DNA of 48,413 nucleotides from a virus. The position numbers and the translations under genes were made by a program. This document shows positions 14,988 to 48,413 of this stretch, one piece after another. The first letter of the stretch is position 1. The number at the start of each line of letters is the position of its first letter. The DNA is taken from positions 1 through 48,413 of IMG/VR virus record IMGVR_UViG_3300025098_000077; one strand, 5' to 3'. Under the pieces are notes generated by a model. It was given only the letters and a program-made list of their open reading frames with translations. It did no database searches and was not told the origin of the DNA.

Positions 14988-16094
14988 TTAGTTAATATTT
15001 TTTTGGGGGGGGTCTTTTAAAGAGTTGTTAGAAACTTTAATGAATTTTACATTTAGGGGTGAAAGGTCTCTTATGGAAAAGAGACCTAAATATGATAAAG
15101 AAGATGCAATAGAGTTGTTGAAATTAGTGACAAACTGATTCAAAGTAGTTTCAGGGTATTGTTTAACACCTTGCTCCCCTTCAATATGGGTGATGGTTTT
15201 TTTATAAAAAAACTCTTGTTGAAAAGATTCAGAAGCCTTACCTCTGTAATTTTTATATCTGTATTGATTTTTAAAGAGCGTACCAAAAGAAATTTTATTG
15301 AAAAACTTTAAAAGTTTTGATTCTTTCCACCCATGGCTTTCAACAGTTTTACTAAGTAAATTTCCGAGCATGATTGCATCCGCACCTGCGGAAAGATACT
15401 TTACTGCGTCTCCAGTATTTCTTATTCCACCGTCTGCGATTATGGTAACGTTATCTTTTATACCTTGAGTATAAAATCCAAACCAAGTCTCATAGACAGC
15501 AGAAAGATTTGGAACGCCGCAACCAGTAACTGTTCTAGTTGTAGAAGCTGAGCCGGGGCCCATGCCGACTCTTATATGAGAGCAGCCTGCTCTATAAACA
15601 TTGTAAGCTGACTTATAAGTAGCTACAGTTCCTGACATTAAGTTATTGCACCAAGAAACGTTTGAATACTTATTATAAACTTTATAAAGCTCAACCATGT
15701 CTCCATGAGCAACATCAACGGAAATATTTATAGAAGCATTAGGTTTATTAATTTTTATCCAATCATTTAAAAATGAAAAATATGTGATGCTAGCACCTAC
15801 TGAAAACCAATAATTTTCAGAGGAACTGTAAAGCTCTAAAGAAGTGACAAGGTGCTTTTCGTCAAGGTACCTGCAGAAAACAGGTGCCTGGTTTAATTCT
15901 AAAAACGTTTTAGCAAACTCAAGACCAGTGACGGTGTCCATTGGGCTGCTATAAATATAAGTAAAATCTATATCTGCATCTGACCTGCTTTTTAATACCC
16001 CAGCACGCGGTTGGAGTAAAACATCATCAGTTGAAATCTTGACTTCACCGTTAAGAACTGAATCGTTATGTAAAAGATGGTCTTTTGATTTCAT
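14988..16094 (-). CDS. IMP dehydrogenase / GMP reductase-family TIM barrel, catalytic Cys replaced by Ser
   Basis: About 368 residues from the ATG at 16094, which overlaps the upstream stop in an ATGA. The barrel is well conserved: DVLLQPRAG near the start, SSPMDTVTG, DVAHG, MSGTVATY, GMGPGSASTTR, IIADGGIRNTGDA, GADAIMLGNLL and YRGKAS. CBS domains are absent, as in GMP reductases and some phage relatives. The loop normally reading GS-x-C-TTR here reads GSASTTR (codon TCT), so the nucleophilic cysteine needed for IMP/GMP chemistry is Ser184. The enzyme may be inactive, altered or a binding protein. It probably affects guanine nucleotide pools, consistent with the nearby nucleotide genes. Confidence 0.8.
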   Translation of the reverse strand: MKSKDHLLHNDSVLNGEVKISTDDVLLQPRAGVLKSRSDADIDFTYIYSSPMDTVTGLEFAKTFLELNQAPVFCRYLDEKHLVTSLELYSSSENYWFSVGASITYFSFLNDWIKINKPNASINISVDVAHGDMVELYKVYNKYSNVSWCNNLMSGTVATYKSAYNVYRAGCSHIRVGMGPGSASTTRTVTGCGVPNLSAVYETWFGFYTQGIKDNVTIIADGGIRNTGDAVKYLSAGADAIMLGNLLSKTVESHGWKESKLLKFFNKISFGTLFKNQYRYKNYRGKASESFQQEFFYKKTITHIEGEQGVKQYPETTLNQFVTNFNNSIASSLSYLGLFSIRDLSPLNVKFIKVSNNSLKDPPQKNIN

Positions 16095-17104
16095 AAGAAG
16101 TCTTTTAACATTTCCTTGTCGGTGCAAACATTCTTATAGTCGCAGAAACGACACTGCCAATCACCTTTTTCGACAGCTTTGACGATACGTTTTTTGCCCT
16201 CCTCTAGTTGCTTTTTACGCTTCTCGTACTGGGTTGTATCTGTCTTGCTTAGGAGACCTTTGTCATAAAGGTCAGTGATCTTTTCTTCTGAATAATTCAA
16301 TTCATAATCAGGAGGAGGTATAGATATTGTTTCAGAACCAACAGAATCTGAGACTAGCTTGTAAGCCTCGAGTATACTTTGGATAGTAATGCCTGAATTA
16401 ATCTTCTCACCAAGGATTGGAGTGTGACCTTGATAATAAATGTAGTCTAGACCATCCTCTTCTTGTTCTACAGTGACCAAATATTCTGCATACCTGCCTG
16501 TATCTCTAGCCCCGTAAGTAAGCAGGCCTTCACCAAATTCTTCATTATTATTAGCGTACCACCACTGATATATACCTAATTGCATCAAGTGAGAATCTCT
16601 AGGAGTGCCAATGAGATTTTTCTTATATTGAGACTCTGTACCGAGTACAGTATTAGCATTGAACCCATAAACGGATTTGACTTCTACAATATGCATTTTG
16701 GTGGTTTCTGGATTGATTACAATTAGATCAATTTTACCAGAAACATTATATTGAGGAATGTAAACACTAGTTTGACCAGCAATAAAGACGCCGGACTCTT
16801 TTGCCATGTTTACGCAATAATCTTCATAAAGCTGGCCTTGTATCCAAATCCAGCGCAAATATTTACTTGGAGCAAGCTTGTTTTCATGAAGGACATTTAT
16901 TAAAGGTTCAAGATGTTCATACTTCTTGTCAAAGTAATAGCTATCTGTAGCGAACCTGAAATAAGATTGCCTTTTACACTTTCCAATAACCTGTCCTTCA
17001 ATAATTGAAGTAGCTGAAGAAGGCCAAAGCGTAGGTGCTTTTTGTTCATCAAGTTTTGGGCGTTCAAGGTATTTTGAAATATGTTTAATAAAAGACCAAG
17101 TCAT
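16091..17104 (-). CDS. Cas4/RecB-like PD-(D/E)XK nuclease with iron-sulfur cysteines
   Basis: A 337-residue protein with the Cas4/AddB-type arrangement: an early Cys43 (GKCKRQSYFR), the nuclease core SGKIDLIVI (D126) and HIVEVKSV (E141-x-K143), the QxxxY motif (Q175-Y179), and a terminal WQCRFCDYKNVC (C318, C321, C327). Four cysteines in this order normally hold a 4Fe-4S cluster. It is expected to be an exonuclease or flap-processing enzyme for recombination or DNA-end processing. There is no CRISPR array or other Cas gene, so it is a phage recombination-type nuclease. It is coupled to both neighbours by 1-4 base overlaps. Confidence 0.8.
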   Translation of the reverse strand: MTWSFIKHISKYLERPKLDEQKAPTLWPSSATSIIEGQVIGKCKRQSYFRFATDSYYFDKKYEHLEPLINVLHENKLAPSKYLRWIWIQGQLYEDYCVNMAKESGVFIAGQTSVYIPQYNVSGKIDLIVINPETTKMHIVEVKSVYGFNANTVLGTESQYKKNLIGTPRDSHLMQLGIYQWWYANNNEEFGEGLLTYGARDTGRYAEYLVTVEQEEDGLDYIYYQGHTPILGEKINSGITIQSILEAYKLVSDSVGSETISIPPPDYELNYSEEKITDLYDKGLLSKTDTTQYEKRKKQLEEGKKRIVKAVEKGDWQCRFCDYKNVCTDKEMLKDFL

Positions 17105-18473: not shown

Positions 18474-19718
18474 CTACACCTCGTATAGCACAATTGAATT
18501 TAAAATTAATTTTATATCAGGTTCTGTACGTTCTACTTTGACCTTGCAGCAAACAATGTCAGTCTCTTTAAGATTGAGTTTAGAAATTTTAGACCACATT
18601 TGAGGAAAAATAACAATTTCTGCAGTAGCAGTTTTGTCATTGATTTCAATGAAGGCCATATTCTTACCCTTCCTAGTGACTATGTTCTTTATGGAAAGTA
18701 TGACGCCAGCAACGTTAGCATATTGCGATTCGTTTAGAAATGAAATTTTATCGCTATTAATTTTAATTAAATCCATAGGGTGGCCTCCAATATAGCACCC
18801 TATGTAATTTGCTTGATCTAAGATTTCTTTCATTCCAAGCTCTACAAAATTATCTTTTAATAATTCTGGAAAGTCAGTTTTTTCTTTAGATTTTAAAGTA
18901 ACTTTTTTTTTCAACTCTTGGTCTTCGAGAGGTTCAAGCTCTGAAGAAAGAATATGAAAATTATCCATGTCGCCTTCTTTGATCTTATCTTTATCAATTC
19001 GATTTTGAATTTTTTTTAATTCTTTTCTAAGGAAATTTCGTCTTTCTATGAGCGGAATGATCCTAGCATTGTAAGCATTTCTTTCGATTACGTCTAGTTC
19101 TCTTTGTTTATAATCCTCCATACTCTTAACATAAGAGTATATTTGAGGACATTTTTCAAGGAGATCTGCTCTATCGTAACCAAGCTTGTCGAAAGCCCCT
19201 GCTTTGACGAGAGCTTCGAAAGTTTTTGTATTTACTTTTTGCAAATTGACGCGGCTAACAAAATCTTTTACAGATTTAAAAGGTGTTTTTTGTCTAGCTT
19301 TAATAATCATTCTTGCTGCTGTGCGACCAACATCTCTTATTGCATTTAAACCAAAATAAATTTCTTTGTCTGCAATGGTGAATTCAAATCCAGACTGATT
19401 TACATAAGGTGGATTTACAGTCACATTAAATTTTTTAGCTTCTTCAATGTATTCTGGGGCTTTAAGAGCCCAGCTTTTAGGTTGCAAAGTTTTGCTTCGT
19501 GTAGACATTAATGCTGTGAAAAATTCTACAGGATAATGTGTTTTCATGTATGCGCTTACATAGGTAAGTATGGAGTAGCTAACACTATGTGCTTTGTTAA
19601 AACAATTAGAAGCGATTGCGCCATTTTCTAAAACAAAGTTATGATTTCCTTCTAGAGAGGTTACACCAATATCGTATACTTCTTGTTTTCCGATATATTC
19701 TTTTGAAATTATCTTCAT
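18474..19718 (-). CDS. dnaE: DNA polymerase III alpha, C-terminal piece with N-terminal split intein (Int-C)
   Basis: A 414-residue protein. Residues 1-38 are a DnaE-type Int-C (GKQEVYDIGV, HNFVLENGAIASN) ending in Asn38, followed by the +1 extein CFNKAHSVSYS, the canonical DnaE splice site. The extein continues with the rest of the fingers (YVSAYMKTHYPVEFF), a helix-hairpin-helix segment (GLNAIRDVGRTAARMI, KAGAFDKLG), a charged helical insert and an OB fold (VAGVILSIKNIVTRKGK, MAFIEINDKT). It should be spliced in trans to the piece encoded at 27955-29562. The ATG lies 4 bases after the upstream stop. It cannot polymerise alone because the catalytic Asp residues are on the other pieces. Confidence 0.9.
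   Translation of the reverse strand: MKIISKEYIGKQEVYDIGVTSLEGNHNFVLENGAIASNCFNKAHSVSYSILTYVSAYMKTHYPVEFFTALMSTRSKTLQPKSWALKAPEYIEEAKKFNVTVNPPYVNQSGFEFTIADKEIYFGLNAIRDVGRTAARMIIKARQKTPFKSVKDFVSRVNLQKVNTKTFEALVKAGAFDKLGYDRADLLEKCPQIYSYVKSMEDYKQRELDVIERNAYNARIIPLIERRNFLRKELKKIQNRIDKDKIKEGDMDNFHILSSELEPLEDQELKKKVTLKSKEKTDFPELLKDNFVELGMKEILDQANYIGCYIGGHPMDLIKINSDKISFLNESQYANVAGVILSIKNIVTRKGKNMAFIEINDKTATAEIVIFPQMWSKISKLNLKETDIVCCKVKVERTEPDIKLILNSIVLYEV
19605..19718 (-). other. split DnaE intein, C-terminal half (Int-C)
   Basis: The 38 codons from the start of the polymerase C-piece match the block F/G region of cyanobacterial split DnaE inteins. They include the VYDIG and HNF motifs, a terminal Asn at 38 and Ser at the penultimate position. 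Cys39 of the extein is the +1 nucleophile. Confidence 0.9.
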
Positions 19719-23698: not shown

Positions 23699-26600
23699 TT
23701 AGTTTCGATATCCTGTAAAGATTGAATCACCATTAGTGGTATCTACTTCGAAATGGGCGTCTTCGTGTGTCTTGGCTTTGCAGCCGTAAAAAATGATGTC
23801 ACCTGCGCCACTATTGGTTATAATATCGGCCATGTCAATTTCGAACGGACCGAGATGTGAGCTAATTTTTATGGTTGAAGGCATGATGACAGAATAAACA
23901 CTAGAACCATGATCTTGCTGCTCAAATAGTCCACCGTCTCTTACTTCTAGGAGGTCAATGTTGTCAGCATTGTTTTTGGCTTGTGTATCAAGTTGAGTGA
24001 CTGCAGTTTTTAAATTGGTTCCATCAGCATAGTTAGCATCAGCTATAACAGTGTAAGTGCCATTACTATTAAGTCCAATTGCGGTTTCATGCGTGTGGGA
24101 TAATGCTTGAAGAGCTGTGATATCAGTATCATTCGAACTGATGTTGCTCGCATTGGAGGATATACCAGAAGTATTCGTGCTGATGTCACCATCATTACCT
24201 GTAATCTGACTCTGTAGACTCGTGAGCGTTGAAGCGTGAGAAGACTGAGTAGAGGTAAGGCTGTTAATGCTCGTTGTGTGAGATCCGATACTGCTAGTAT
24301 TGGAGGCTACATCTGTTTCAAGATCATCAATGTCGCTCTCAGCAGCAGTCATCCTGGTACCGAGATTTGATATATCCGTATCGTTTGAACTGATGTTGCT
24401 TTCAGCAGAACTTATACGAGTCGTAAGACCTGCAATGTCAGTATCATTACTTTGGATGGCGGCCAAGTTAGAGGCTATATCAGAGTCATTCGCACTGATG
24501 TTGCTCGTATTGGTCGAGATGTTACTAGCATTAGTGCTGATTGAACTGGCGTTGGTACTGATACTCGATGTATTAGTAGCCACATCAGACTCTAGGTCAT
24601 CTATATCACCTTCAGCCGCTGTCATCCTGGTACCAAGACCTGCGATGTCAGTATCATTACTCTGAATTGCCGCTAAGTTGCTAGTGATGTCTCCATCATT
24701 TGCTGTAATTTGGGTTTGCAATCCAGTAATTGCAGAGGAGGTGCCTAATTCAGAAGCAACATTAGTTGCTAAAGTTGAATCTGAAGAAACAGAAGAGATG
24801 AAACTAGCGTTTGTGCTTAATGAACTAGCAATAACGCTGTTAACTGCATCTGCTCCAGCAGCTCCAGTTGGGCCCTGGATACCAGTGTCTCCAGTGTCGC
24901 CTTTAGGTCCGGTAGGGCCGGCAACACCCTGTGGGCCAGTTGCTCCTTGTATTCCTTGCGAACCAGTTTCGCCTTGAGGTCCAGCTGGACCTTGAAGACC
25001 TTGATCCCCTGTTTCACCTTGAACACCTTGAATGCCTTGTTGACCAGTTTGGCCAATTGGACCTTGCTCTCCTTGAGGACCAGTACTTCCTGCTGCACCC
25101 TGAGGGCCGGTTGAACCTTGGTCTCCAGTGTCGCCCTTAATGCCTTGGGCGCCTTGAATTCCGTCAGAACCATCAATGCCGTCAGAACCAGCAGGTCCAG
25201 CTGCGCCTTGAGAGCCTGTTTGTCCAGCAACGCCTTGAATTCCTTGAATTCCTTGATCGCCAGTATCGCCTTTTACGCCTTGAGGGCCTTGTATGGATCC
25301 TCCAGAGACAAAAACGCTCCCATCATGTATGTGGAGGGAATCATTAGATTCAACAAGATAAGCATCTCCTTGAGTGGGAGATGAAATAATGCTTAGCGCA
25401 TTTACATCAGCTACGGAACCTTTAAAGGTAATCCCTGTGCCTGCGGGTCCTTGAGAACCAACCGAGCCAGCTGCTCCTTGTTGACCTTGAATTCCTTGTT
25501 CACCTTGTGGTCCAGTTTCGCCTTGCGGCCCGGTTAGCCCTGTAGGGCCTTGTTGACCGACATCACCTTGAGGTCCAGCCGCACCGGCAGCGCCGGCAGC
25601 ACCTTGAGGTCCGGTAGGGCCCGCAACACCGTCTGAACCGTTTGAACCAGCCGCCCCTGTAGGGCCAGCGTCTCCTTGAGCACCTTGAGGTCCGGCGGGA
25701 CCTTCTGTTCCCTGTAGCCCCTGTGGGCCTTGAATTCCTTGTGGGCCCGTATCTCCAGAAACTCCTTGCGGACCGGTTGCACCAAGAGCGCCATCTTGAC
25801 CATCCTGACCGTCTTGACCAATAAGTGATTCTAAGAATTGGGCTTCAGTACCAGAATTTCCATTAGAGATCCATATTTGATAAGCTGAAGAGCCATCAGA
25901 ACCATTTTGACCATTTACTCCTGCAAGACCCTGCAACCCTTGATCACCATCGTCTCCTTTTGGGCCGGTCGATCCATCTGCCCCATCTGCCCCACTAGGT
26001 CCTGCAACGCCTGCAGGGCCCGCAGGGCCTTGGATAGAACCACCATCTACCCAAGTACTAGTGGAAGAGTTCCATACATATAAGGTGTAGTTCTCATCAG
26101 TAATAGTGTAAGCGTCTCCAGATGCTGCGCTACTTTCATATTGGGTTAAACTACTGAAAGTACTTTCATTGCCCTTGAGGTTAATACCTAAACCGGCAAC
26201 CCCTTGTGGGCCTTGGATCCCTTGAGGCCCCTGTATTCCTTGGCTCCCATCAACTCCATCAGTACCTGCAACTCCCTCTGGACCTGCAGGGCCTTGAACA
26301 CCAGCGCTTCCAGTTGCGCCTATTAAACTATCTAAAAAATCTTGTTCGTTGCCAGTATTTCCAGCAAGAATCCAGGTTTGGTATGCAGAGCTACCAGCTA
26401 CACCTTGCGAACCGGCATCACCGGTATCCCCTTTTAACCCTTGGATTCCGTCAGCGCCGTCTGCTCCGGCAGGACCTTGAGGGCCAGTCGCTCCAGGGTT
26501 CCCTTGAACACCTTGGGCTCCTGTTTGCCCAGGATTTCCTTGGGGGCCTTGAGGTCCATCAACTCCGGCGGGACCTTGAGCTCCAGTTAAGCCTGTTGGC

Positions 26601-27112
26601 CCTTGAGGGCCAGTCAAACCGATGGGACCTTGAGGGCCAGTGGCTCCAACATCCCCTTGAAGACCTTGAATCCCAGTAAGACCTTGAACGCCTGGAGCTG
26701 AGCTTAAATTAATTACCCAAGAATCGTAATATAATTCGCTAGCATTGTTAGATACATGAGAAAATGATAGTTGATCCGTCGAATAACTAGTGACGGTTGC
26801 TATTTGCACCTTGGTTAAATCTGTTGATGGGGCAATTGAAATATATTCTCCGCCAACATATGACAACCCACTAGTAACGGTTAAAGTGCCATTTGAATCA
26901 TTGGAATGCATAGATGTAGAAGTAGTAGAAAAGTTAACGCTTTCTCCGGGACTTCCTGCGGCACCATCACTACCCTGAGGCCCCTGAGGACCCTGAGGTC
27001 CAGCTGGTCCAATAATACCTTGTTGAACTTCTAACAGTACTTTTTCTTTTATATTATTAACTACTGATGGATCTAGAGACCCTTTTCGATTATCTGTTCT
27101 TCTTGTAGCCAT
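23699..27112 (-). CDS. collagen-like tail-fibre protein with coiled-coil stalk
   Basis: A 1137-residue protein. After a basic N-terminus (MATRRTDNRKGSLDP) come several collagen blocks of G-x-y triplets, rich in GPQG, GATG and GDTG. They are interrupted by two SAYQxW-x-x-G-N-x-G modules and two GDAY...W/G-GSIQGP modules, both common in phage fibres. About 220 residues of regular SNxSxNDTDIAxL-type repeats follow, forming a trimeric coiled-coil or beta-helical stalk. A final ~110-residue tip ends at FTGYRN. AAGGATTTAAAAAATG precedes the start. It very likely forms a trimer and works with the neighbouring repeat fibre in host attachment. Confidence 0.9.
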   Translation of the reverse strand: MATRRTDNRKGSLDPSVVNNIKEKVLLEVQQGIIGPAGPQGPQGPQGSDGAAGSPGESVNFSTTSTSMHSNDSNGTLTVTSGLSYVGGEYISIAPSTDLTKVQIATVTSYSTDQLSFSHVSNNASELYYDSWVINLSSAPGVQGLTGIQGLQGDVGATGPQGPIGLTGPQGPTGLTGAQGPAGVDGPQGPQGNPGQTGAQGVQGNPGATGPQGPAGADGADGIQGLKGDTGDAGSQGVAGSSAYQTWILAGNTGNEQDFLDSLIGATGSAGVQGPAGPEGVAGTDGVDGSQGIQGPQGIQGPQGVAGLGINLKGNESTFSSLTQYESSAASGDAYTITDENYTLYVWNSSTSTWVDGGSIQGPAGPAGVAGPSGADGADGSTGPKGDDGDQGLQGLAGVNGQNGSDGSSAYQIWISNGNSGTEAQFLESLIGQDGQDGQDGALGATGPQGVSGDTGPQGIQGPQGLQGTEGPAGPQGAQGDAGPTGAAGSNGSDGVAGPTGPQGAAGAAGAAGPQGDVGQQGPTGLTGPQGETGPQGEQGIQGQQGAAGSVGSQGPAGTGITFKGSVADVNALSIISSPTQGDAYLVESNDSLHIHDGSVFVSGGSIQGPQGVKGDTGDQGIQGIQGVAGQTGSQGAAGPAGSDGIDGSDGIQGAQGIKGDTGDQGSTGPQGAAGSTGPQGEQGPIGQTGQQGIQGVQGETGDQGLQGPAGPQGETGSQGIQGATGPQGVAGPTGPKGDTGDTGIQGPTGAAGADAVNSVIASSLSTNASFISSVSSDSTLATNVASELGTSSAITGLQTQITANDGDITSNLAAIQSNDTDIAGLGTRMTAAEGDIDDLESDVATNTSSISTNASSISTNASNISTNTSNISANDSDIASNLAAIQSNDTDIAGLTTRISSAESNISSNDTDISNLGTRMTAAESDIDDLETDVASNTSSIGSHTTSINSLTSTQSSHASTLTSLQSQITGNDGDISTNTSGISSNASNISSNDTDITALQALSHTHETAIGLNSNGTYTVIADANYADGTNLKTAVTQLDTQAKNNADNIDLLEVRDGGLFEQQDHGSSVYSVIMPSTIKISSHLGPFEIDMADIITNSGAGDIIFYGCKAKTHEDAHFEVDTTNGDSIFTGYRN

Positions 27113-27954: not shown

Positions 27955-29562
27955 TTACTTTTTTAATTGTAAGTTTCGTTTATAGATGGTCTCGATTTCA
28001 AGCATTTCGTTATCATTTGTTAAAAATTTATGATCTTCAGTAGCTTTGATTTCAGAGCCATCTTTAAGAGTATATTTAAACACATCTTGAATGCCTCTTT
28101 CGTGCCATTGGGTTACTTGCTGTGAATATTTTGTATCAGTAACTTTGTTGTACGAAGTGATTTCGACTTGCATTTTGTTATCAACGATGTCTTTAATTGT
28201 CAAAACTCCTTGAGAAGTATTGATTTTAGTAGTCGCTGCTAGACAGTAATCAGCAAACCCAACAAGGTTATCCCAAAGTTCATTACTGTACGTTTCGGAC
28301 AAACCGCCAGTATTGATGCAACCACTTATAAATTGAGTTTTATAAACATTCAAAACCTCAACCTTTTTTTTGCCCATTGCACGTCTAATATCATCAGATT
28401 CTTTAGGAGTAAAACCTGCGATTTTGGAACAAATTTCCATCACTTGCTCTTGGTAAACAAGAGTCCAGTAAGAGTTTTTAAGTATTTCTGCAACGGGATC
28501 AGGAAGATCTTCAGGAGCAAAATTGTTGTATTTGTTCAAAATGTACTGTTTGTCAAGGCCAGCTTGAAGCGGTCCTGGTCGATTTAAAGCAGAAATAGCA
28601 GATAAATCTTCTATAGATTTAGGTTTGATTTTTATAATCAATTCCTTGGCCATACCTGAAGTTTCCATTTGAAAAACCCCAGTAAGCAAACCTTTTTCTA
28701 AAGTTAAATAAGTTTCTGTATCAAAATCAGGAATTGCGTATGGGTTTAATTGAATTTCGTGATTGTCATAAATAAGTTTAGTACATTCTTTAACAATAGA
28801 GAGAGTGTCAATGCCTAAGAAATCGAACTTAATAAGCCCAAGTTCTTCACATTCGTCTTTGTCAAACTGAGTTATTCTTTCAGATTTCTTATTTTTCCAA
28901 AGGGGTACAGTGTTTTTTATTGGGTTGTCGGATATAATCAATCCTGCGGCGTGAATACCAAAGTTGGACACCATGCCCTCTATTCTGTCTGCAAAATGTA
29001 AAAACTCAGAAAACTTTTCAGTTTCTTCTAGTTCTGGATGTTGATCTAGAATTTCTTCAAGAGTTGATTCTTTTCCAAATTTAGGTGGAGGAATATAATC
29101 TAAGAGTTCTGAAAGGTGATTCGTATCACCGTCAGTAATTCTATAGAAACTTCTCGCTAAAGATTTAGGTTTAAATGTTCCATGAGTAATAATATTAGCA
29201 ACATTATCTTGACCCCAATAGTCAATACACCAGTCAATTGCAGTCTCACGGTCTAAAGCATCATGGTCTATGTCGATATCTGGGGGGCTGCCTCCGATAG
29301 TGTCTGATCGAGCTTTTTTAAAGTCAAATTCAGACGTTAAGCCGGTAACATAAAGTAAGATACTATTATGAGGATTATGGTTGAAGAAGGTTTCGTTTTT
29401 AGAATAAGCACCGTTAATTAAACAGCTGTTCATTCTTTCCAAATCTTCAATAGAAGACATTTTAATTTCAAATTCTAAATAATCTGGATCGACTTGATTA
29501 TATCTTGTGTCTATTATAAAAGAGTCTATGCTTTGTAATATTTTTTTTCTTTTTTGATCCAT
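27955..29562 (-). CDS. dnaE: DNA polymerase III alpha, middle (catalytic) piece ending in split intein Int-N
   Basis: A 535-residue protein. SPPDIDIDHD (D95, D97) and LIKFDFLG (D247) supply the three catalytic aspartates of C-family polymerases. THGTFKPKSLARS, FGIHAAGLII, GVFQMETSGM, NRPGPLQAG and YQEQVMEI are classic alpha-subunit motifs. The extein ends GFADY439. Cys440 begins a 96-residue DnaE-type Int-N (CLAATTKINTSQG, WHERGIQDVFKY, block B T508-x2-H511) that stops at the gene end. It needs the PHP piece (33583-34938) and the Int-C piece (18474-19718). No Shine-Dalgarno is evident before the ATG. Confidence 0.9.
   Translation of the reverse strand: MDQKRKKILQSIDSFIIDTRYNQVDPDYLEFEIKMSSIEDLERMNSCLINGAYSKNETFFNHNPHNSILLYVTGLTSEFDFKKARSDTIGGSPPDIDIDHDALDRETAIDWCIDYWGQDNVANIITHGTFKPKSLARSFYRITDGDTNHLSELLDYIPPPKFGKESTLEEILDQHPELEETEKFSEFLHFADRIEGMVSNFGIHAAGLIISDNPIKNTVPLWKNKKSERITQFDKDECEELGLIKFDFLGIDTLSIVKECTKLIYDNHEIQLNPYAIPDFDTETYLTLEKGLLTGVFQMETSGMAKELIIKIKPKSIEDLSAISALNRPGPLQAGLDKQYILNKYNNFAPEDLPDPVAEILKNSYWTLVYQEQVMEICSKIAGFTPKESDDIRRAMGKKKVEVLNVYKTQFISGCINTGGLSETYSNELWDNLVGFADYCLAATTKINTSQGVLTIKDIVDNKMQVEITSYNKVTDTKYSQQVTQWHERGIQDVFKYTLKDGSEIKATEDHKFLTNDNEMLEIETIYKRNLQLKK
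27958..28245 (-). other. split DnaE intein, N-terminal half (Int-N)
   Basis: Codons 440-535 of the polymerase middle piece. Cys1, the WHxRG-x-Q-x-VF-x-Y segment and the block B ATEDHKFL agree with cyanobacterial split DnaE Int-N halves (about 100 residues). The insertion point after GFADY is the canonical DnaE site. No homing-endonuclease domain is present. Confidence 0.9.
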
Positions 29563-33582: not shown

Positions 33583-34938
33583 TCAAAAAGGTTTGTCGCT
33601 ATTGTCTGCAAGAGCAGCCATGTGTTTGTTAAAAATGAGCGGTGTGGCACCGCGACCTTCGTTTAAAAATCTTTCAAAAATTAAACCGTACTTAATAGGG
33701 TCAACTTCTGTAATGCCCAAAGCATAAGCTATGAGAGAGCCTGCGGCAGAGCCGCGACCAGGTCCGTGAAGAACGCCTCTTTCTTTTGCACCCTTCATGA
33801 ATTGAGAAACAATTAATAAGTAATCTGCAAAACCCATTTTTTTGATAACACTCAACTCATAGGTAAGTCTTTGCTGGTAAATCTCAGGAGGCATTTCTTT
33901 GAAACGGTCAAATAACCCATGTTGACTTTCTAAAGCAAGAAAATCAATATCAGTAAAACCTTCTGGAAGGTCTTTGTATTTAGGGTAACGGTTCATGCGA
34001 TCCATAAAATAGGAATCGCTATCTATCATGTCTGCTAAAGTTTTAGTATTACTAATAACATCATAAGGCATATTTTGATTTTTTGCTTCGTTCCACATCC
34101 AGTCATGACTCGCCATATGGACGTTAATTTCGCCAAAAGTGAATCTTTTAGGATTGGATAAAGTAGTTTTTGTCTGCATACATAGAGCTGCTTCGTGATG
34201 CATCTTGTCATGCTCATAAGCGTAATGACAATCATTTGTAACGATCATTGGGAAGTCGTTGTCTAGAGCAATCCTTTGCAAGACCTTATTGACTTCTTGT
34301 TGCTCATGGTCTCTATGAAGTTGCAACTCTATGATAAATTTATCTTTAAAGATGGCTTTGTGATGGTGTATTAGTTTTTCAGCAGCTGTAATTTCATTAT
34401 TTAATATCAGTTGACTAGCTCTGCTTCCGAGACAAGTAGTGGTAGCAATAATTCCTTCAGAATGATCTGCTAGCAAAGCGTCATCAATCCTAGGTTTCCT
34501 ATAGAAACCGCTAGTGTATGAATCTGAAGAAAGTTTCATCAAGTTGTGCAACCCAACATTGTTTTCAGCAATAAGGATTAAATGATAATAACTTTTTCCA
34601 AGTTCATCTGGTTCTTTTAACGTTCTGTCATTAACTGCATAATAAGCTTCCATACCAATAATAGGTTTTATGTTTGCTTTGTTACACTCTTTAAAAAACT
34701 TGTAACATCCTGAAATGTTGCCATGATCAGTCATAGCAACAGCAGGTTGATTCATATTTTTAACAAAGTGAGGAAGTCTTTTAATTTTATTAATACCATC
34801 TAGCAAAGAATACTCTGTATGTACGTGCAAGTGTACATATGGGTTTTCGTTTGCTGGTGCTTCTTTCATCTCAAGATTAACTGCAGGAGCTGAAGCTCTA
34901 TGGTTGCTCTTGCGGTTGTGGTTCTGGTTGTTGCACAT
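33583..34938 (-). CDS. dnaE: DNA polymerase III alpha, N-terminal piece (PHP domain plus start of palm)
   Basis: A 451-residue protein. The PHP domain shows HLHVHTEYSLLDG (36-48), AMTDHGN, GMEAYY, TTTCLG, LHRDHEQQE and TNDCHY, so the metal-binding residues of an active PHP phosphoesterase appear intact; it may proofread. It continues into the polymerase core with GFADYLLIVSQF and GPGRGSAAG (392-400), then GLIFERFLN and stops at DNSDKPF. The segment after FLN (GRGATPLIFNK) lacks the catalytic aspartates, which are on the middle piece. No intein is visible. The start is uncertain: an in-frame ATG at 34869 would avoid the 41-base overlap with recA. Confidence 0.9.
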   Translation of the reverse strand: MCNNQNHNRKSNHRASAPAVNLEMKEAPANENPYVHLHVHTEYSLLDGINKIKRLPHFVKNMNQPAVAMTDHGNISGCYKFFKECNKANIKPIIGMEAYYAVNDRTLKEPDELGKSYYHLILIAENNVGLHNLMKLSSDSYTSGFYRKPRIDDALLADHSEGIIATTTCLGSRASQLILNNEITAAEKLIHHHKAIFKDKFIIELQLHRDHEQQEVNKVLQRIALDNDFPMIVTNDCHYAYEHDKMHHEAALCMQTKTTLSNPKRFTFGEINVHMASHDWMWNEAKNQNMPYDVISNTKTLADMIDSDSYFMDRMNRYPKYKDLPEGFTDIDFLALESQHGLFDRFKEMPPEIYQQRLTYELSVIKKMGFADYLLIVSQFMKGAKERGVLHGPGRGSAAGSLIAYALGITEVDPIKYGLIFERFLNEGRGATPLIFNKHMAALADNSDKPF

Positions 34939-43662: not shown

Positions 43663-43932
43663 TTATTCCTTGTTTTTCTTATTAATTGTTACTTCGTTTT
43701 GATTTAAAAATACTTTGTAGTAGTAACCTGCCATAAAGTATATAGAGAACAATTGACTTAAATTAGCTTCAAGTAAATTGCTTTTTACAGTTTTCGTGAT
43801 TACTTGAATATAATCATCTATGTGCTGTAGGTTTTCGTTTTCTTGATCAGCAAAACATTGCTTGAGTATGGTTTGAAATAACTGTTCAGAAGACATGTTT
43901 AATAAGCCTTCTTTAGTTTTTATTTCAAACAT
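43663..43932 (-). CDS. small helical protein
   Basis: An 89-residue protein from the ATG at 43932, which overlaps the TGA of the Whirly-like gene by 8 bases. It is helical (GLLNMSSEQLFQTILKQCF) with a hydrophobic stretch LFSIYFMAGYYYKVFLN. Unrecognised. Coupling to the Whirly-like gene suggests a shared process. Confidence 0.5.
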   Translation of the reverse strand: MFEIKTKEGLLNMSSEQLFQTILKQCFADQENENLQHIDDYIQVITKTVKSNLLEANLSQLFSIYFMAGYYYKVFLNQNEVTINKKNKE

Positions 43933-44362
43933 TATTCCATCCAAGAATGATTGGAATGGCGCTAGAGAAAAGTCTACCTAGCACATTAAATTCACCACCA
44001 GTAAGACTTACGCTAACTCGGTTATCACCCATATTCAGGGTCATCATGTAAGTGCCGGTGTATTTACCTTCCCCGTGAGAGAAGGTGAGCTTCTTATTAG
44101 TCGAATCGTTAACATGGAAAAAAGATCCCCATTTTGGATTGTTTGGGTCATCGAAAAATAAGCAGAGATCGTTAATACCAAAAGCAAAAGTTACTTTCTG
44201 GTTTCTCCAATCGTAAGTTTTATCACCTACAGAAGGTGCCATTTCTAAAAGCACTGCACCGTTCTTGCTAATTCTACCATTGTCATCTCTCCTAGGTGGC
44301 AATACTGTGAATTGAGCAGCGGCTGTCTTCTTATAGATGTTAAAGCTTGAAGGGTAATTCAT
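43925..44362 (-). CDS. Whirly-domain-like ssDNA-binding protein
   Basis: A 145-residue protein that follows the Whirly domain throughout: FNIYKKTAAAQF at the position of the plant YKGKAAL motif, GAVLLEMAPSVG (plant LLLQFAPSAG), YDWRNQKVTFAF (plant YDWSRKQVF), SFFHV, a pair of beta strands YMMTLNMGDNRVSVSL, and EFNVLGRLFSSAIPIILGW (plant EFAVLISAFNFVLPYLIGW). Whirly proteins form oligomers that bind ssDNA. It probably serves as the phage SSB, since no OB-fold SSB is seen here. The gene starts inside the stop of phoH (ATGA type). Confidence 0.75.
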   Translation of the reverse strand: MNYPSSFNIYKKTAAAQFTVLPPRRDDNGRISKNGAVLLEMAPSVGDKTYDWRNQKVTFAFGINDLCLFFDDPNNPKWGSFFHVNDSTNKKLTFSHGEGKYTGTYMMTLNMGDNRVSVSLTGGEFNVLGRLFSSAIPIILGWNNV

Positions 44363-45243
44363 ATTTTGTCCTTGTTTAATTCTTTGTCAATATTGTATAT
44401 AAGGTCAGGAATGAGACCTCTATATTGTTTTGTTAATTCAATTTTTGAGGTAAATTTTGAATTTTGAAATGATTCTGAGTTCAAAAGTGTATAAAGACCA
44501 CTTTCTGAATATTTAAATCCTGCATCAATCTGATTTGGATCTCCACAAAGTATAATTTTGCTGTTAGCGCCTATCCTAGATAACACTGTCTTAAGTTCGT
44601 GCCAAGTTAAATTTTGACATTCATCAAGCACAAAAGTGCAGTTTTCGAAAGTGCACCCTCGAGTGAATTCAACTGGCATAAATTCTATGTGCTTTTTGTC
44701 TAACATGGTTTGTAAATAATCTCTGCCAGATGCACCTAACATTTTATTTAAAATTATCTCAAAACTACCTATATATGGAGCATATTTTTCTTGCATATCT
44801 CCTGGAACAGGACCAAACACTTGGTTTTCATGAGAGGAAACTAGGTGGGTTGGCTTGCACAAATAGATTTTCTTCTTGTTAGAAAAGTAGTTACTAATTG
44901 CTTTTGCTAAAGCCAATGTCGTTTTACCAGTCCCAGCAGCACCTAAGGCTGCTATAATAGAAACAGAGGGTTCTTCCAATAAATTGCAATAAACCACTTG
45001 TTTTAAATCTTTTGGAGCGAATCCGTTAATAGATTTGTTTTTAAAAGAGTCTATAAGCTTAACTGTTCCATTGATAGACAAAACGACTGTTTTTTTATTT
45101 TGACTGTTTGTTACAAAGCAGAAATCGCCATTTTTTAGTTTTAAAAGCTGCGCTATTTCTTCATTTAAGAAATTCAACTCATATAATGATTCAAAAGAGG
45201 AGTCTGGAATGACTATTTCTTTAATAGGTTTCTTGCTACTCAT
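44359..45243 (-). CDS. phoH: PhoH-like ATPase
   Basis: A 294-residue protein with Walker A GAAGTGKT (101-108), KPTHLVSSHENQVFGPVPGD, RGCTFENCTFVLDECQN (Walker B D207, E208) and CGDPNQID, the PhoH core, typical of many marine and large phages. The N-terminal ~75 residues are extra. It is probably an RNA/DNA-dependent ATPase or helicase; the physiological role in phages is unsettled. It heads the run with the Whirly-like and SpoVG-like genes. Confidence 0.88.
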   Translation of the reverse strand: MSSKKPIKEIVIPDSSFESLYELNFLNEEIAQLLKLKNGDFCFVTNSQNKKTVVLSINGTVKLIDSFKNKSINGFAPKDLKQVVYCNLLEEPSVSIIAALGAAGTGKTTLALAKAISNYFSNKKKIYLCKPTHLVSSHENQVFGPVPGDMQEKYAPYIGSFEIILNKMLGASGRDYLQTMLDKKHIEFMPVEFTRGCTFENCTFVLDECQNLTWHELKTVLSRIGANSKIILCGDPNQIDAGFKYSESGLYTLLNSESFQNSKFTSKIELTKQYRGLIPDLIYNIDKELNKDKI

Positions 45244-45393: not shown

Positions 45394-45657
45394 TTACTTA
45401 CTTCCAGGCGAGGTTTCGCTTGGAGCATTTCTTAGGGAGCTGCCATTACCTTTAACACTGCCAGTAGCAAAAACTTCTGCATTGTGAGGCACAGTAGTAT
45501 CAGAGTAGGTTGCTGCAGGAACGCCTGCGCCATTAATGATGATATCTCGGCCATGTAAATTTTCTTGTGAAATCAAATTGGCAACGGTCGCATCAGATGA
45601 AAGGGTGACTTGGCGAGCGCCAGATCCGGGGATAACAATGAGTGTAATGTTGGTCAT
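45394..45657 (-). CDS. ThiS/ubiquitin-like beta-grasp protein (single domain)
   Basis: An 87-residue protein. The core (LIVIPGSGARQVTLSSDATV, NLHGRDIIINGAGVP, EVFATGSVKGN) has the order of ThiS/MoaD-type beta-grasp proteins: strand, strand, helix, a ThiS-like INGxxVP turn, then the G-x-E-V strand. The tail is not Gly-Gly: it reads SVKGN and continues for 16 residues. The same domain occurs twice in the protein encoded at 46307-46753. An E1-like gene is nearby. Role unknown: sulfur carrier, conjugated modifier or structural protein. Confidence 0.65.
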   Translation of the reverse strand: MTNITLIVIPGSGARQVTLSSDATVANLISQENLHGRDIIINGAGVPAATYSDTTVPHNAEVFATGSVKGNGSSLRNAPSETSPGSK

Positions 45658-45713
45658 TTTTTCTCTTTCGAGTAAAGGGAGAGTAAGTAGTTGTTTTTAG
45701 ATAAAGTGAATTG

Positions 45714-46019
45714 TTATTCAGCGGCCCAACCAAAAAATAAAAACTTTTTGAGTTGGGCAGAATGTTCTTTTTTTAATTCTATACAGCCAGCAGGGCCGTA
45801 TTTGTCTGAATAACGAGTGTTTAATAAATTTGCGGCTAAAGAGTCGGCTGCAGAAATTTCTAGTGGCTCTGAAGAAGCCATAGTATAATACTCTTTTTCA
45901 GCTATAGTGCCGGTATAACCGGCAGATCCGTAGTCGTGTTTTGCTTCAAAGACTAAGTTGCTGAAAGCTTGAGAAGCATTTTCTGCTGAAGTAGATAAAT
46001 AAAAAGTAGAAGAGCCCAT
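45714..46019 (-). CDS. small protein, paralogue of the neighbouring 46033-46317 product
   Basis: A 101-residue protein from the ATG at 46019, with AAGGA 6 bases upstream. The middle (AFSNLVFEAKHDYGSAGYTGTIAEKEYYTM, residues about 16-45) matches AFLNLLEQEAAWQDNYQIQG of the adjacent protein. Both also share a C-terminal GC-x-[EF]-[LI] stretch. The AGYTGTIAEK wording is familiar from small hypothetical phage proteins. It lies between two ubiquitin-like genes. Confidence 0.55.
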   Translation of the reverse strand: MGSSTFYLSTSAENASQAFSNLVFEAKHDYGSAGYTGTIAEKEYYTMASSEPLEISAADSLAANLLNTRYSDKYGPAGCIELKKEHSAQLKKFLFFGWAAE

Positions 46020-46032
46020 AGGTTTCCTTATA

Positions 46033-46317
46033 CTATTGAATAAAAAACAGATATTTAGTGTTGGTGTCATTTTTTATAAAAACGCAACCTAGTGTTTTTG
46101 GACGCAACTTAAATGGTCTATTTGAATTAATAAAAGAAACCGCCTCTTCTTTAGAAGGAAACTCATCAAGAGAAACAATTTTATACCTTTTATAAGGGGC
46201 AAAAAAGCCTTGAATTTGATAATTGTCTTGCCAAGCTGCTTCTTGTTCGAGGAGATTTAAAAACGCTTGTTTAGCGCCGTCACCAGAAGAGATAGAATAT
46301 TTTAAATCAGATACCAT
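46033..46317 (-). CDS. small protein, paralogue of the neighbouring 45714-46019 product
   Basis: A 94-residue alpha/beta protein from the ATG at 46317, which overlaps the stop of the tandem ubiquitin-like gene; AAGGG lies upstream. The sequence KYSISSGDGAKQAFLNLLEQ followed by an aromatic strand and TLGCVFIKNDT matches the next gene. A longer in-frame reading to 46458 is antisense-like hydrophobic sequence within the Ubl gene and is not used. Function unknown. Confidence 0.55.
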   Translation of the reverse strand: MVSDLKYSISSGDGAKQAFLNLLEQEAAWQDNYQIQGFFAPYKRYKIVSLDEFPSKEEAVSFINSNRPFKLRPKTLGCVFIKNDTNTKYLFFIQ

Positions 46318-46753
46318 TATTGCCCTTAACGCTACCAGTGGCGAAGACTTCATTTCCGGAAGAAATGGTTGTAGTTTCCCACTCAGCAGGGGGTACACCA
46401 CGGCCATCAACAATAATATCGCGGCCATGTAAGTTTTCTTGGCAAACCAGAGCTGCAACTGTAAGGGTTGAAGTTGAGCCAGCCATTGAAATTTGGCGAG
46501 CGCCAGATCCAGGAATAACGATCAAAGTAAAAGATGAATTATTACCCTTGACGCTACCGGTAGCAAAGACTTCTGCTCCGTTAGGAACTGGTGTGGTTGC
46601 CCATTGATCTGCAGGGACACCCACACCGTCAATGATAATATCGCGGCCGTGTAGGTTCTCTTGGCAGGCAAGATCTGAAACAGTAGCGCTAGAGTTTAAA
46701 GAAGTTTGGCGAGCGCCAGATCCAGGAATTACAATAAGTGTGATGTTAGTCAT
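46307..46753 (-). CDS. tandem ThiS/ubiquitin-like protein (two beta-grasp domains)
   Basis: A 148-residue protein from the ATG at 46753. Domain 1 (about 1-72) and domain 2 (about 75-148) repeat the same sequence: LIVIPGSGARQ, QENLHGRDIIxDGxGVP, W-x-TT and EVFATGSVKGNN. The repeat is closest to the single-domain protein at 45394-45657. Each domain ends SVKGN, with no Gly-Gly. The head-to-tail arrangement recalls polyubiquitin-type precursors. Together with the E1-like enzyme encoded upstream it may form a modifier or sulfur-carrier pathway. Shared AGAGAAAAAATGAC leaders precede this gene and the single-domain gene. Confidence 0.7.
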   Translation of the reverse strand: MTNITLIVIPGSGARQTSLNSSATVSDLACQENLHGRDIIIDGVGVPADQWATTPVPNGAEVFATGSVKGNNSSFTLIVIPGSGARQISMAGSTSTLTVAALVCQENLHGRDIIVDGRGVPPAEWETTTISSGNEVFATGSVKGNNGI

Positions 46754-46772
46754 TTTTTTTCTCTTTTTAAAT

Positions 46773-46801
46773 AAAAAAGGGGGCAAAGCCCCCGGTTTTT
46801 T
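46773..46801 (-). terminator. intrinsic terminator or attenuator before the tandem ubiquitin-like gene
   Basis: On the - strand, A6-CC precedes GGGGGC (46793-46788), a TTT loop and GCCCCC (46784-46779), followed by six T residues (46778-46773). The 6-bp G/C stem plus U tract fits an intrinsic terminator for the E1-like/H1-like genes. Only about 20 bases separate it from the next start codon. Confidence 0.75.
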
Positions 46802-46843
46802 GAATGATGATGTTTTGTTAATGTTGAAAACGGATTGTTTATT

Positions 46844-47029
46844 TTAAGCTTTTCGAGAATTTCTTTCTTCTTGAACTAGCTTTCGAAGTTCTTGCAGATC
46901 GGCTTTTGCTGTTTGGGCTGCATTTCTAATCCGACGTCCAGCAGCATCATTGCCAGAGTCAAATTTCTCAGCATCGGTTAGAGCATCAGTTAGATTTGTA
47001 ATAATTTCATTAATTTTTTGTTTTGTCAT
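46844..47029 (-). CDS. histone H1-like (Hc1-type) small basic protein
   Basis: A 61-residue helical protein reading DALTDAEKFDSGNDAAGRRI and RNAAQTAKADLQELRKLVQEE. The pattern of an acidic helix, G-N-x-A-A-G-x-R-x-R and a C-terminal LRK helix is that of the N-terminal domain of chlamydial Hc1 and related small phage and bacterial H1-like proteins. It may bind DNA or organise a nucleoprotein. It overlaps the E1-like gene by 4 bases. Confidence 0.6.
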   Translation of the reverse strand: MTKQKINEIITNLTDALTDAEKFDSGNDAAGRRIRNAAQTAKADLQELRKLVQEERNSRKA

Positions 47030-47760
47030 GTTTTTGACCCTATTGTAAATGTAGATAAAGTAGTGTTGATGTTGGAGGGTAAAGAGAATATTTGTTTAGG
47101 TTGAGGAGTGTAAGTTTCTCCATGCCTGTCTTGAGCAGCTAAACCACACAAAGTGTGTACAACAGAAGAGGAAACGATGCAAGTTAAAGTCGTAATAATA
47201 CGTGCATCACAAGCGCTTTCAGTCACTTCTTCATCTGTTTTTAAGGTGCTTAAATAAGAGTCAATCTGTGCAGAGTAGGCTGGATCGATAATATTGATTT
47301 CTGCATGTTCGAAACCCATCCTTGTTTCAATGACGTAGTCAAGGAGAAGGTGAGAGCGGACCCCTTCGATAATATCTTTTCTTGCTGAAAGAGAATCGAC
47401 TGCAACAAAAACATAATCTTCAAGGTTGTCTTTGTCTTGTTCAGAAAGAAAGAACTTATTATTTGTTTCGACTACTACCTCTGGATTGAACTGAAGTAGT
47501 TTTTGTTTAAAAGCGGTTACTTTAGGTAAGCCAACTTGTTCTAAATCGTAAATTTGATTAGGCAAGTTGTGAGATTCGACTATATCAGCGTCCCAAACAC
47601 GAAAATGTTGCCAACCCATTTTAGCAGCTAAAAGTCCAACCCAACTGCCAGTAGCACCAACTCCAATGATATTTAAAACTTTATCTTGAGAGTCTTCTGG
47701 TCCAAAAAAAGCACCATGTCGTAAAAAAGATACATTAGTTGCGTTAAATGATTCCGTCAT
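47026..47760 (-). CDS. ThiF/MoeB/E1-like adenylating enzyme
   Basis: A 244-residue protein from the ATG at 47760. It contains the nucleotide-binding IIGVGATGSW (G33, G35, G38), RVWDADIVESHNLPNQ (D57, D59, N65) and GLPKVTAF (K80), then VAVDSLSARKDI (D122). Cys184 in ESACDAR is a candidate catalytic cysteine. No zinc CxxC is present. The usual Arg before Gln in the HNL-x-R-Q motif is Asn. E1-like enzymes adenylate the C-terminus of ubiquitin-like proteins. The neighbouring ThiS-like genes support that link. No E2 or JAB gene is seen in the window. Confidence 0.85.
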   Translation of the reverse strand: MTESFNATNVSFLRHGAFFGPEDSQDKVLNIIGVGATGSWVGLLAAKMGWQHFRVWDADIVESHNLPNQIYDLEQVGLPKVTAFKQKLLQFNPEVVVETNNKFFLSEQDKDNLEDYVFVAVDSLSARKDIIEGVRSHLLLDYVIETRMGFEHAEINIIDPAYSAQIDSYLSTLKTDEEVTESACDARIITTLTCIVSSSVVHTLCGLAAQDRHGETYTPQPKQIFSLPSNINTTLSTFTIGSKT

Positions 47761-48413
47761 TGTCAATATAGTCCTTGCATTGTTTTCTGGTTTCTAGGTC
47801 TACTATTTCTAAAGTAGATGTTAAGGCTTCGTACATGTCTTGAATAGAAAAAGTATTATTCTTTAAAGTCTCTTTAAAAAAGGTGAGGCATTTATCTATT
47901 GTAGGGAACTTTTTGGTAAAAGCGGAATCTGAAAAAAAGCTAGGAATTTGTTTCTGCTTACCTGTAATGAAAAAGGTAAAGAATGCTATTTCTCTCTCAT
48001 CAAAAGTTGCGTAAAGAGCTTCTTGGAGCTTTTGTAAGTTACTAGAATGAAGGCTTATGGTTTTGGTAAATTGTTGAGTAGGCGGCATGTAAACATTGTA
48101 GTTATCGAAAATATCATTTAAAACTCCGATTACAATTTCTTCGTTAAGATCATTTGAAAGGACTTTATCATCTTTGGAATTTGCAAAAAAAGAGCTTTCG
48201 AAACTTTTTGACGATGTAAATCTTCCAAGATTCCATCCTGAAGCATTCTTTTTTTTCATCTTTGGCTTGGGTTTGATAAACTTGGTTCTTGCAGCTTGAT
48301 GAATATAAGAAAAGTCATAGTCGCGAACTACGCGGATTGGAACACCTTCGTGTACTGTGTCTGTGGTAGGATCGTAAACTCGACTGTAAAATTGATCTTT
48401 CTTATTAAAAATA
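47744..48413 (-). CDS. unknown protein, N-terminus beyond the right edge (partial)
   Basis: The frame is open through the right edge, so the ATG at 48259 need not be the start. Upstream of it the sequence reads FYSRVYDPTTDTVHEGVPIR, VVRDYDFSYIHQAA and KPKPK in the same frame. At least 222 residues are visible: an N-terminal basic part, then helices (IVIGVLNDIFDNYNVY; LEIVDLETRKQC). Neither an E2 nor a JAB signature is seen. It overlaps the E1-like start by 17 bases and is probably co-expressed with it. Confidence 0.55.
   Translation of the reverse strand, partial: IFNKKDQFYSRVYDPTTDTVHEGVPIRVVRDYDFSYIHQAARTKFIKPKPKMKKKNASGWNLGRFTSSKSFESSFFANSKDDKVLSNDLNEEIVIGVLNDIFDNYNVYMPPTQQFTKTISLHSSNLQKLQEALYATFDEREIAFFTFFITGKQKQIPSFFSDSAFTKKFPTIDKCLTFFKETLKNNTFSIQDMYEALTSTLEIVDLETRKQCKDYIDNDGII

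Follow-up and report, generated by a model that had tools for sequence, protein, structure and literature searches.

The DNA analysed here, the whole of which is called the window, is the virus record IMGVR_UViG_3300025098_000077, positions 1 to 48,413. The locus of interest lies on its minus strand at the right end and encodes an E1-like adenylating enzyme together with ubiquitin-like proteins (Ubls), which probably belong to a phage-encoded system for Ubl conjugation. The six elements recognised in the original prediction as one minus-strand run, namely a ThiF-type enzyme, a histone H1-like protein, a tandem beta-grasp protein, two paralogous small proteins and a single beta-grasp protein, are all present (45394-47766; ThiF 5.2e-21, PF07432 3e-13). 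It had also been remarked that neither E2 nor JAB was visible, but this was an artefact of the window edge, as the sequence to the right gives a JAB gene and an E2-like gene as the next two genes.

A second record, IMGVR_UViG_3300037631_006549 (136,780 bases), has an E1 and a tandem Ubl identical to those of the window and extends past the window edge. The gene cut at the edge encodes a 369-aa JAB/JAMM protein with the motif HSHHNMSPNPSNQDD just outside the window. The Pfam Prok-JAB match is weak for the window-type protein alone (0.0078) and is found in 10 of 12 homologues; the JAMM signature (E...HxHx7SxxD) is present as HSHHNMSPNPSNQD and E36, and HSHx7SxQD is intact in 23 of 24 JAB proteins. 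At two loci (L073 and L076) stop codons divide the JAB gene, so that the JAMM motif lies in an N-terminal open reading frame (ORF) and the C-terminal part forms an ORF of its own. Next upstream is a gene for a 960-aa protein whose C-terminal part reads GGPYLV...IYIHPH...ACLGEAS...W...ANSADTWG, likely to be the arrangement expected of an E2, with a candidate catalytic Cys in CLG. Beyond it are a small protein with Cx5C...CxxC (L002:1826-2062 and homologues; conserved in 13/13 aligned homologues), which could be a zinc-finger accessory or an E3-like factor, and a nucleotidyltransferase (NTase)-like protein (L002:1053-1835 and homologues), in which a GS...DxD pattern (GSYA...DDVDFYF) was read by eye and which is found upstream in the 15 distinct contigs described below. 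The NTase-like protein has neither a credible Pfam match nor a PADLOC match, and its identity as a cGAS/DncV-like nucleotidyltransferase (CD-NTase) was therefore considered to be without support.

Table 1. Features at the right end of the window, listed from right to left in window positions
Feature	Position	Strand	Remarks
JAB/JAMM protease gene, C-terminal 222 codons	47744..48413	-	runs past window edge; complete copy L002:4914-6023, 369 aa
E1-like adenylating enzyme (ThiF superfamily), single adenylation domain, candidate catalytic Cys186	47026..47760	-	
Hc1 (histone H1-like) small helical protein, 61 aa	46844..47029	-	PF07432 3e-13
Intrinsic-terminator-like hairpin, GGGGGC-TTT-GCCCCC then TTTTTT	46779..46793	-	consensus scan; predicted
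Tandem Ubl gene, two beta-grasp domains, each with end ATGSVKGN	46307..46753	-	
Small protein family A (parA), 94 aa	46033..46317	-	11-base overlap with Ubl stop
Small protein family B (parB), ~101 aa, distant paralogue of family A	45714..46019	-	
Single Ubl gene, one beta-grasp domain, ATGSVKGN then 16-residue low-complexity tail	45394..45657	-	
PhoH-like ATPase	44359..45243	-	conserved downstream neighbour, not proposed as component
Whirly-family single-stranded DNA-binding protein	43925..44362	-	conserved downstream neighbour; independent marker of genomic position

Spacing between the genes is short, at -14 bases between the Cys4 and E2-like genes, +3 between E2-like and JAB, -17 between JAB and E1 and -4 between E1 and Hc1, which suggests that the enzymes form one transcription unit. 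The ATG at 47760 is preferred as the start of E1, the listed TTG at 47766 being less likely. The terminator-like hairpin (46793-46779) divides the enzyme block from the first Ubl gene, and may set the levels of Ubl and enzymes apart.

The close contigs came from searches with E2-like, E1 and JAB profiles, which themselves select for the system. Seventeen contigs (15 distinct) keep the order NTase-like, Cys4 protein, E2, JAB, E1, Hc1 where present, Ubl (1-4 repeats), PhoH and Whirly, with small losses or rearrangements, and its recurrence in 15 distinct contigs indicates that the arrangement is not due to chance. E1 and E2-like genes are separate in 15/15. Hc1 separates E1 from Ubl in some of the close contigs and is missing from others (for example L025, L026, L031 and L032). 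Because the profile searches select for the system, the scan was repeated with Whirly, a protein that has no relation to it. Seventeen loci were obtained, and all 16 with complete upstream DNA carry the system; the seventeenth (L121) ends 1 kb upstream and has no JAB in the examined part of its record. It follows that the system is core to this phage group and not accessory. Its neighbours are genes for PhoH, Whirly, ribonucleotide reductase and DNA polymerase, that is, for replication and nucleotide metabolism, and the terminase gene in four long records (123-162 kb) indicates that the phages of the group are tailed. A further 31 divergent loci (L077-L107), of which about 25 are distinct, came from the JAB profile; in nearly all of them E1 and JAB are neighbours, and most also have an adjoining E2-like gene, with a Ubl of some 70 residues close by.

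The E1s are short, with about 215-285 aa and a single adenylation domain each. When 24 representatives were compared, the other members being 24-60% identical to the window E1, the residues G35, G37, G40, S41, D59, D61, N67, N70, Q71, K82, D124, R129 and C186 were invariant in 24/24, and Cys186 is the putative catalytic residue.

Sequence matches of the Ubl are weak (TIGR01683 ThiS 3.6e-4; Lambda_tail_I 9.4e-5; ThiS 0.015; SAMP2 0.032), and tblastn of the Ubl against phages gave no match. The AlphaFold2 model, with a predicted local distance difference test score (pLDDT) of 87.5, has the order beta-beta-alpha-beta-beta-beta, and the best PDB hits of a Foldseek search with it (probability 1.00, best E 1.5e-3) include ThiS (bound to ThiF), ubiquitin, MoaD, SAMP1 and ISG15, so that the beta-grasp assignment originally made for the small domains is borne out. 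Each gene has one to four Ubl copies. Lys-Gly-Asn (KGN), not Gly-Gly, ends or punctuates the Ubls of the close group and of all examined divergent loci but one, L097, which has Ala-Gly-Ala-Asn (AGAN). Among 57 distinct KGN domains, which were collected by the motif itself and so give no frequency of KGN, and one of which (L098, inside a JAB protein) is spurious, 26 stop exactly at Asn; elsewhere the next residue varies (S, G, A, T, N, R, M, Q, V and others). Processing is implied by these precursors, in which 1-4 repeats carry KGN and the residues after it vary. A degenerate Ubl-like protein of 68 aa without the KGN end lies between normal Ubl genes at L023:11373-11579.

The small proteins of families A and B are weakly similar (BLAST 2.9e-5; profile 6.4e-5). 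Family B proteins (window 45714-46019; L016, L017, L018) also occur in Rhodococcus, Gordonia and Caulobacter phages that are not among the named E1 matches. The idea that family B is exclusive to this system was rejected because of these homologues, though a single ORF at L057, in which four Ubl domains precede a family B relative, does tie family B to Ubl.

That the large HPH...CLG protein is an E2 is likely, though not proven, and is based on the motif and a distant profile comparison without a fold match. Proteins of the close family share invariant HPH, CLGEA, W and AN..D..G, and the E2-like genes of the divergent phages are homologous to this family (hhalign 96.8%, E 2e-10). When the divergent set was compared with seven eukaryotic ubiquitin-conjugating (UBC) enzymes, using reference sequences entered by hand and one pair of profiles, the alignment brought HPN/HPH and the catalytic Cys of the two into register (P 8.6e-4, as compared with 0.54 for a reversed control). 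The AlphaFold2 model of the domain (pLDDT 83.6) has a UBC-like order of helices and strands. Several results weigh against the identification and the conjugation pathway proposed below: Foldseek of the domain model against the PDB found no E2, none of the Pfam E2 families matches the protein, and hhalign of the close family with nine E2 domains from the cyclic oligonucleotide-based antiphage signalling system (CBASS) was not significant. To these must be added the limited basis of the UBC comparison, the lack of any known E3 recognised in the system, and the presence of KGN in place of the canonical Gly-Gly at the Ubl C-terminus. Comparison of the close family with single E2 sequences by hhalign was also not significant, Foldseek against viral models gave one uncharacterised homologue and a weak unknown and nothing else, and the profiles of Ubl, E2 and JAB had no meaningful match among PDB sequences. 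Matches of the E2 profile to chemokines in the PDB (E 0.09-0.8) were set aside as chance. No E2 or CBASS E2-E1 relatives were confirmed in bacterial genomes, and hence no bacterial source or prophage was found.

On balance we consider it probable that the operon is a complete ubiquitin-like conjugation cascade belonging to the phage core genome. The genes, their order and core status, the conserved residues of catalytic type and the beta-grasp model are shown, and from these we infer conjugation and every step of the reaction. The Ubl would be produced as a precursor of one to four copies in tandem, sometimes followed by a C-terminal tail. The JAMM protease would cleave at the KGN punctuation to free individual Ubls whose C-terminus can be activated, and may in addition strip Ubl from targets. 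The E1 would adenylate the Ubl C-terminus and then take the Ubl on Cys186 as a thioester, from which the E2-like protein would receive it on the Cys of HPH...CLG and attach it to proteins in the infected cell. The long variable N-terminal part of the E2-like protein and the small Cys4 protein encoded just upstream possibly select the targets, which may be proteins of phage or host with importance for the phage's own cycle. A role in that cycle is favoured over a carried defence module because the core position adjoins replication and nucleotide genes.

The Gly of KGN becomes C-terminal only if cleavage occurs between Gly and Asn. We somewhat favour the possibility that JAB does cut here, giving a normal Gly-ended modifier with Asn as a cap. 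It is also conceivable, if doubtful, that Asn is retained, the mature modifier ending in Lys-Gly-Asn and the E1 activating the C-terminal Asn, as in MccB, to give an asparaginyl thioester or a succinimide-linked conjugate. We know of no ubiquitin-type bond like either of these. Retention is suggested by the conservation of Asn across Ubls that otherwise share almost nothing, with the next residue free or absent, and a JAB cut after Asn fits better with a following residue that varies freely or, in many Ubls, does not exist. In MccB, the side chain of the terminal Asn captures the adenylate (PMC12250964, PMC13255007), which would make a terminal Asn awkward for thioester formation.

The combination of E1, E2, JAB and Ubl partners, with sulfur-transfer genes lacking, is that of bacterial operons predicted to conjugate (PMC1779556). 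Types 6d and 6e of Iyer et al. 2006 similarly encode E1, JAB, Ubl and an E2-fold protein together; type 6d has a separate E2 and a stand-alone Ubl, while type 6e resembles the phage operon in its tandem Ubl repeats, which number 1-3 in that type and are 70-75 aa long, and in encoding a metal-binding Cys/His protein (PMC1779556). Those operons are sporadic in bacteria, whereas the phage operon has a fixed core position, JAB and E1 as separate genes, a KGN-ended Ubl and an E2-like protein of 700-1100 aa with an active-type Cys. More distantly, crAss001, Flavobacterium phage Fpv3 and Xanthomonas phage PhiXhv-15 have E1s homologous to that of the window (25-32% identical), which are annotated as thiamine biosynthesis proteins; these ThiF clusters bear no annotation other than thiamine biosynthesis protein or metalloprotease. 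In crAss001 and Fpv3 a JAB adjoins the E1 (Prok-JAB 4.9e-4 and 7.6e-3), and a plausible Ubl is encoded upstream. PhiXhv-15, in which no JAB was identified, encodes an 892-aa protein containing HPH...SLCLG as well as a small protein that ends in SGG. The Ubl candidates of these three carry KSG or end in SGG, in contrast to the KGN of the window group, and it would seem that phage Ubl systems are of several kinds. No description of a full phage-encoded Ubl cascade was found in the open-access literature, a scope that leaves out most subscription journals and preprints.

It is possible, but unlikely, that the phage carries a Bil-type defence module, in which Ubl would be attached to virion proteins of competing phages, spoiling their progeny and so serving superinfection exclusion. 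Bil is an antiviral system that acts on the phage tail. The window E1 matches PADLOC E1-E2 models, and the four component types are those of BilABCD (Ubl, E1, E2 and JAB-type protease, with a Ubl precursor that requires proteolysis) and of other bacterial E1/E2/JAB/Ubl operons (PMC11354881). However, BilD has an inactive and an active adenylation domain, as opposed to the single E1 domain of the phage system, and the CEHH motif of BilB (Cys, Glu+6, His+8, His+13; PMC11354881) is not present in CLGEASSLIYRAF or its relatives, the phage E2-like protein having HPH...CLG instead. With a single-domain E1 and an E2-like protein lacking CEHH, the phage system is not Bil. Unlike defence cassettes, which are sporadic, it keeps one fixed place in the core genome, flanked by genes for replication and nucleotide metabolism (Whirly marker, 16/16). 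Type II CBASS, with Cap2 and Cap3, also has E1, E2 and JAB activities beside a nucleotidyltransferase gene. Cap2 is an E2-E1 fusion that conjugates the CD-NTase itself, whereas the phage genes are separate and a dedicated Ubl is present; since E1 and E2 are unfused, the phage system is not type II CBASS. Interference with a host Ubl defence, as suggested in the original prediction, is possible but without specific support.

Much less probable is an MccB-like reaction, in which the E1 modifies the C-terminal Asn of the Ubl by way of a succinimide, followed by nucleotide attachment, with no thioester cascade. KGN is conserved in extremely divergent Ubls and is the literal C-terminus in many, and MccB of microcin C7 is likewise an E1-like enzyme that recognises a peptide (MccA) with C-terminal Asn, acting on MRTGNAN via a succinimide (PMC12250964, PMC13255007). 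Its substrate is a heptapeptide, and it forms no thioester (PMC12250964) and has no E2 or JAB partner, whereas the phage E1 has the invariant Cys186, and its E2-like and JAB genes would be left unexplained.

Protein modification by a phage E1 with Ubl partners, one of the functions first suggested for the locus, agrees with the reading favoured above, but thiolation, another of them, is disfavoured. That E1 loads ThiS-like proteins as sulfur carriers, for thiolation of a nucleotide, tRNA or cofactor, is highly improbable, even though the Ubl fold is close to ThiS and MoaD, the E1 resembles ThiF and nucleotide-metabolism genes are near by. The scanned genes of the window and its flanks include no recognised sulfurtransferase, and those of the operon no recognised rhodanese, cysteine desulfurase or thiolation enzyme. 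In the close group, JAMM protease and E2-like genes accompany E1 and Ubl; the Ubl precursors are tandem, and their C-terminus is KGN, where the ThiS/MoaD sulfur carriers have Gly-Gly. Least credible is a structural or tail-assembly role like that of the lambda TAPI (Ubl) and TAPK (JAB) pair, for which the weak Lambda_tail_I match (9.4e-5) and the phage setting with a JAB protein might speak, because E1 and E2-like genes, absent in lambda, are present here, no tail genes were recognised around the operon, and the JAB has no NlpC/P60 match.

Elsewhere in the window, DNA polymerase III alpha is split over three minus-strand genes (33583-34938, 27955-29562 and 18474-19718). The second ends in an N-intein (PF14890 1.5e-6, starting CLAATTKI), and a C-intein (MKIISKEYIGKQEVYDIGV...NGAIASN followed by CFN) stands at the beginning of the third, that is, a split intein, at what we take to be the cyanobacterial DnaE site. 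Within the split-polymerase region lies a gene for a 1137-aa protein with collagen repeats (23699-27112; PF01391 3.6e-74), and an IMP dehydrogenase / GMP reductase-like gene is found at 14988-16127 (PF00478 2.1e-41).

Ubiquitin-like conjugation in bacteria has so far been studied mainly as an antiviral weapon. If the conjugation cascade proposed here is correct, bacterial viruses would themselves run ubiquitin-type chemistry, whether for replication, host take-over or rivalry. The system poses a testable chemical question, namely whether the tag ends in Gly or Asn, and because crAss001 and Fpv3, in which distant E1-JAB relatives occur, have cultured hosts, experiments are possible. The many divergent lineages of E2-like, JAB and Ubl proteins also supply material for the question of how ubiquitin signalling originated.

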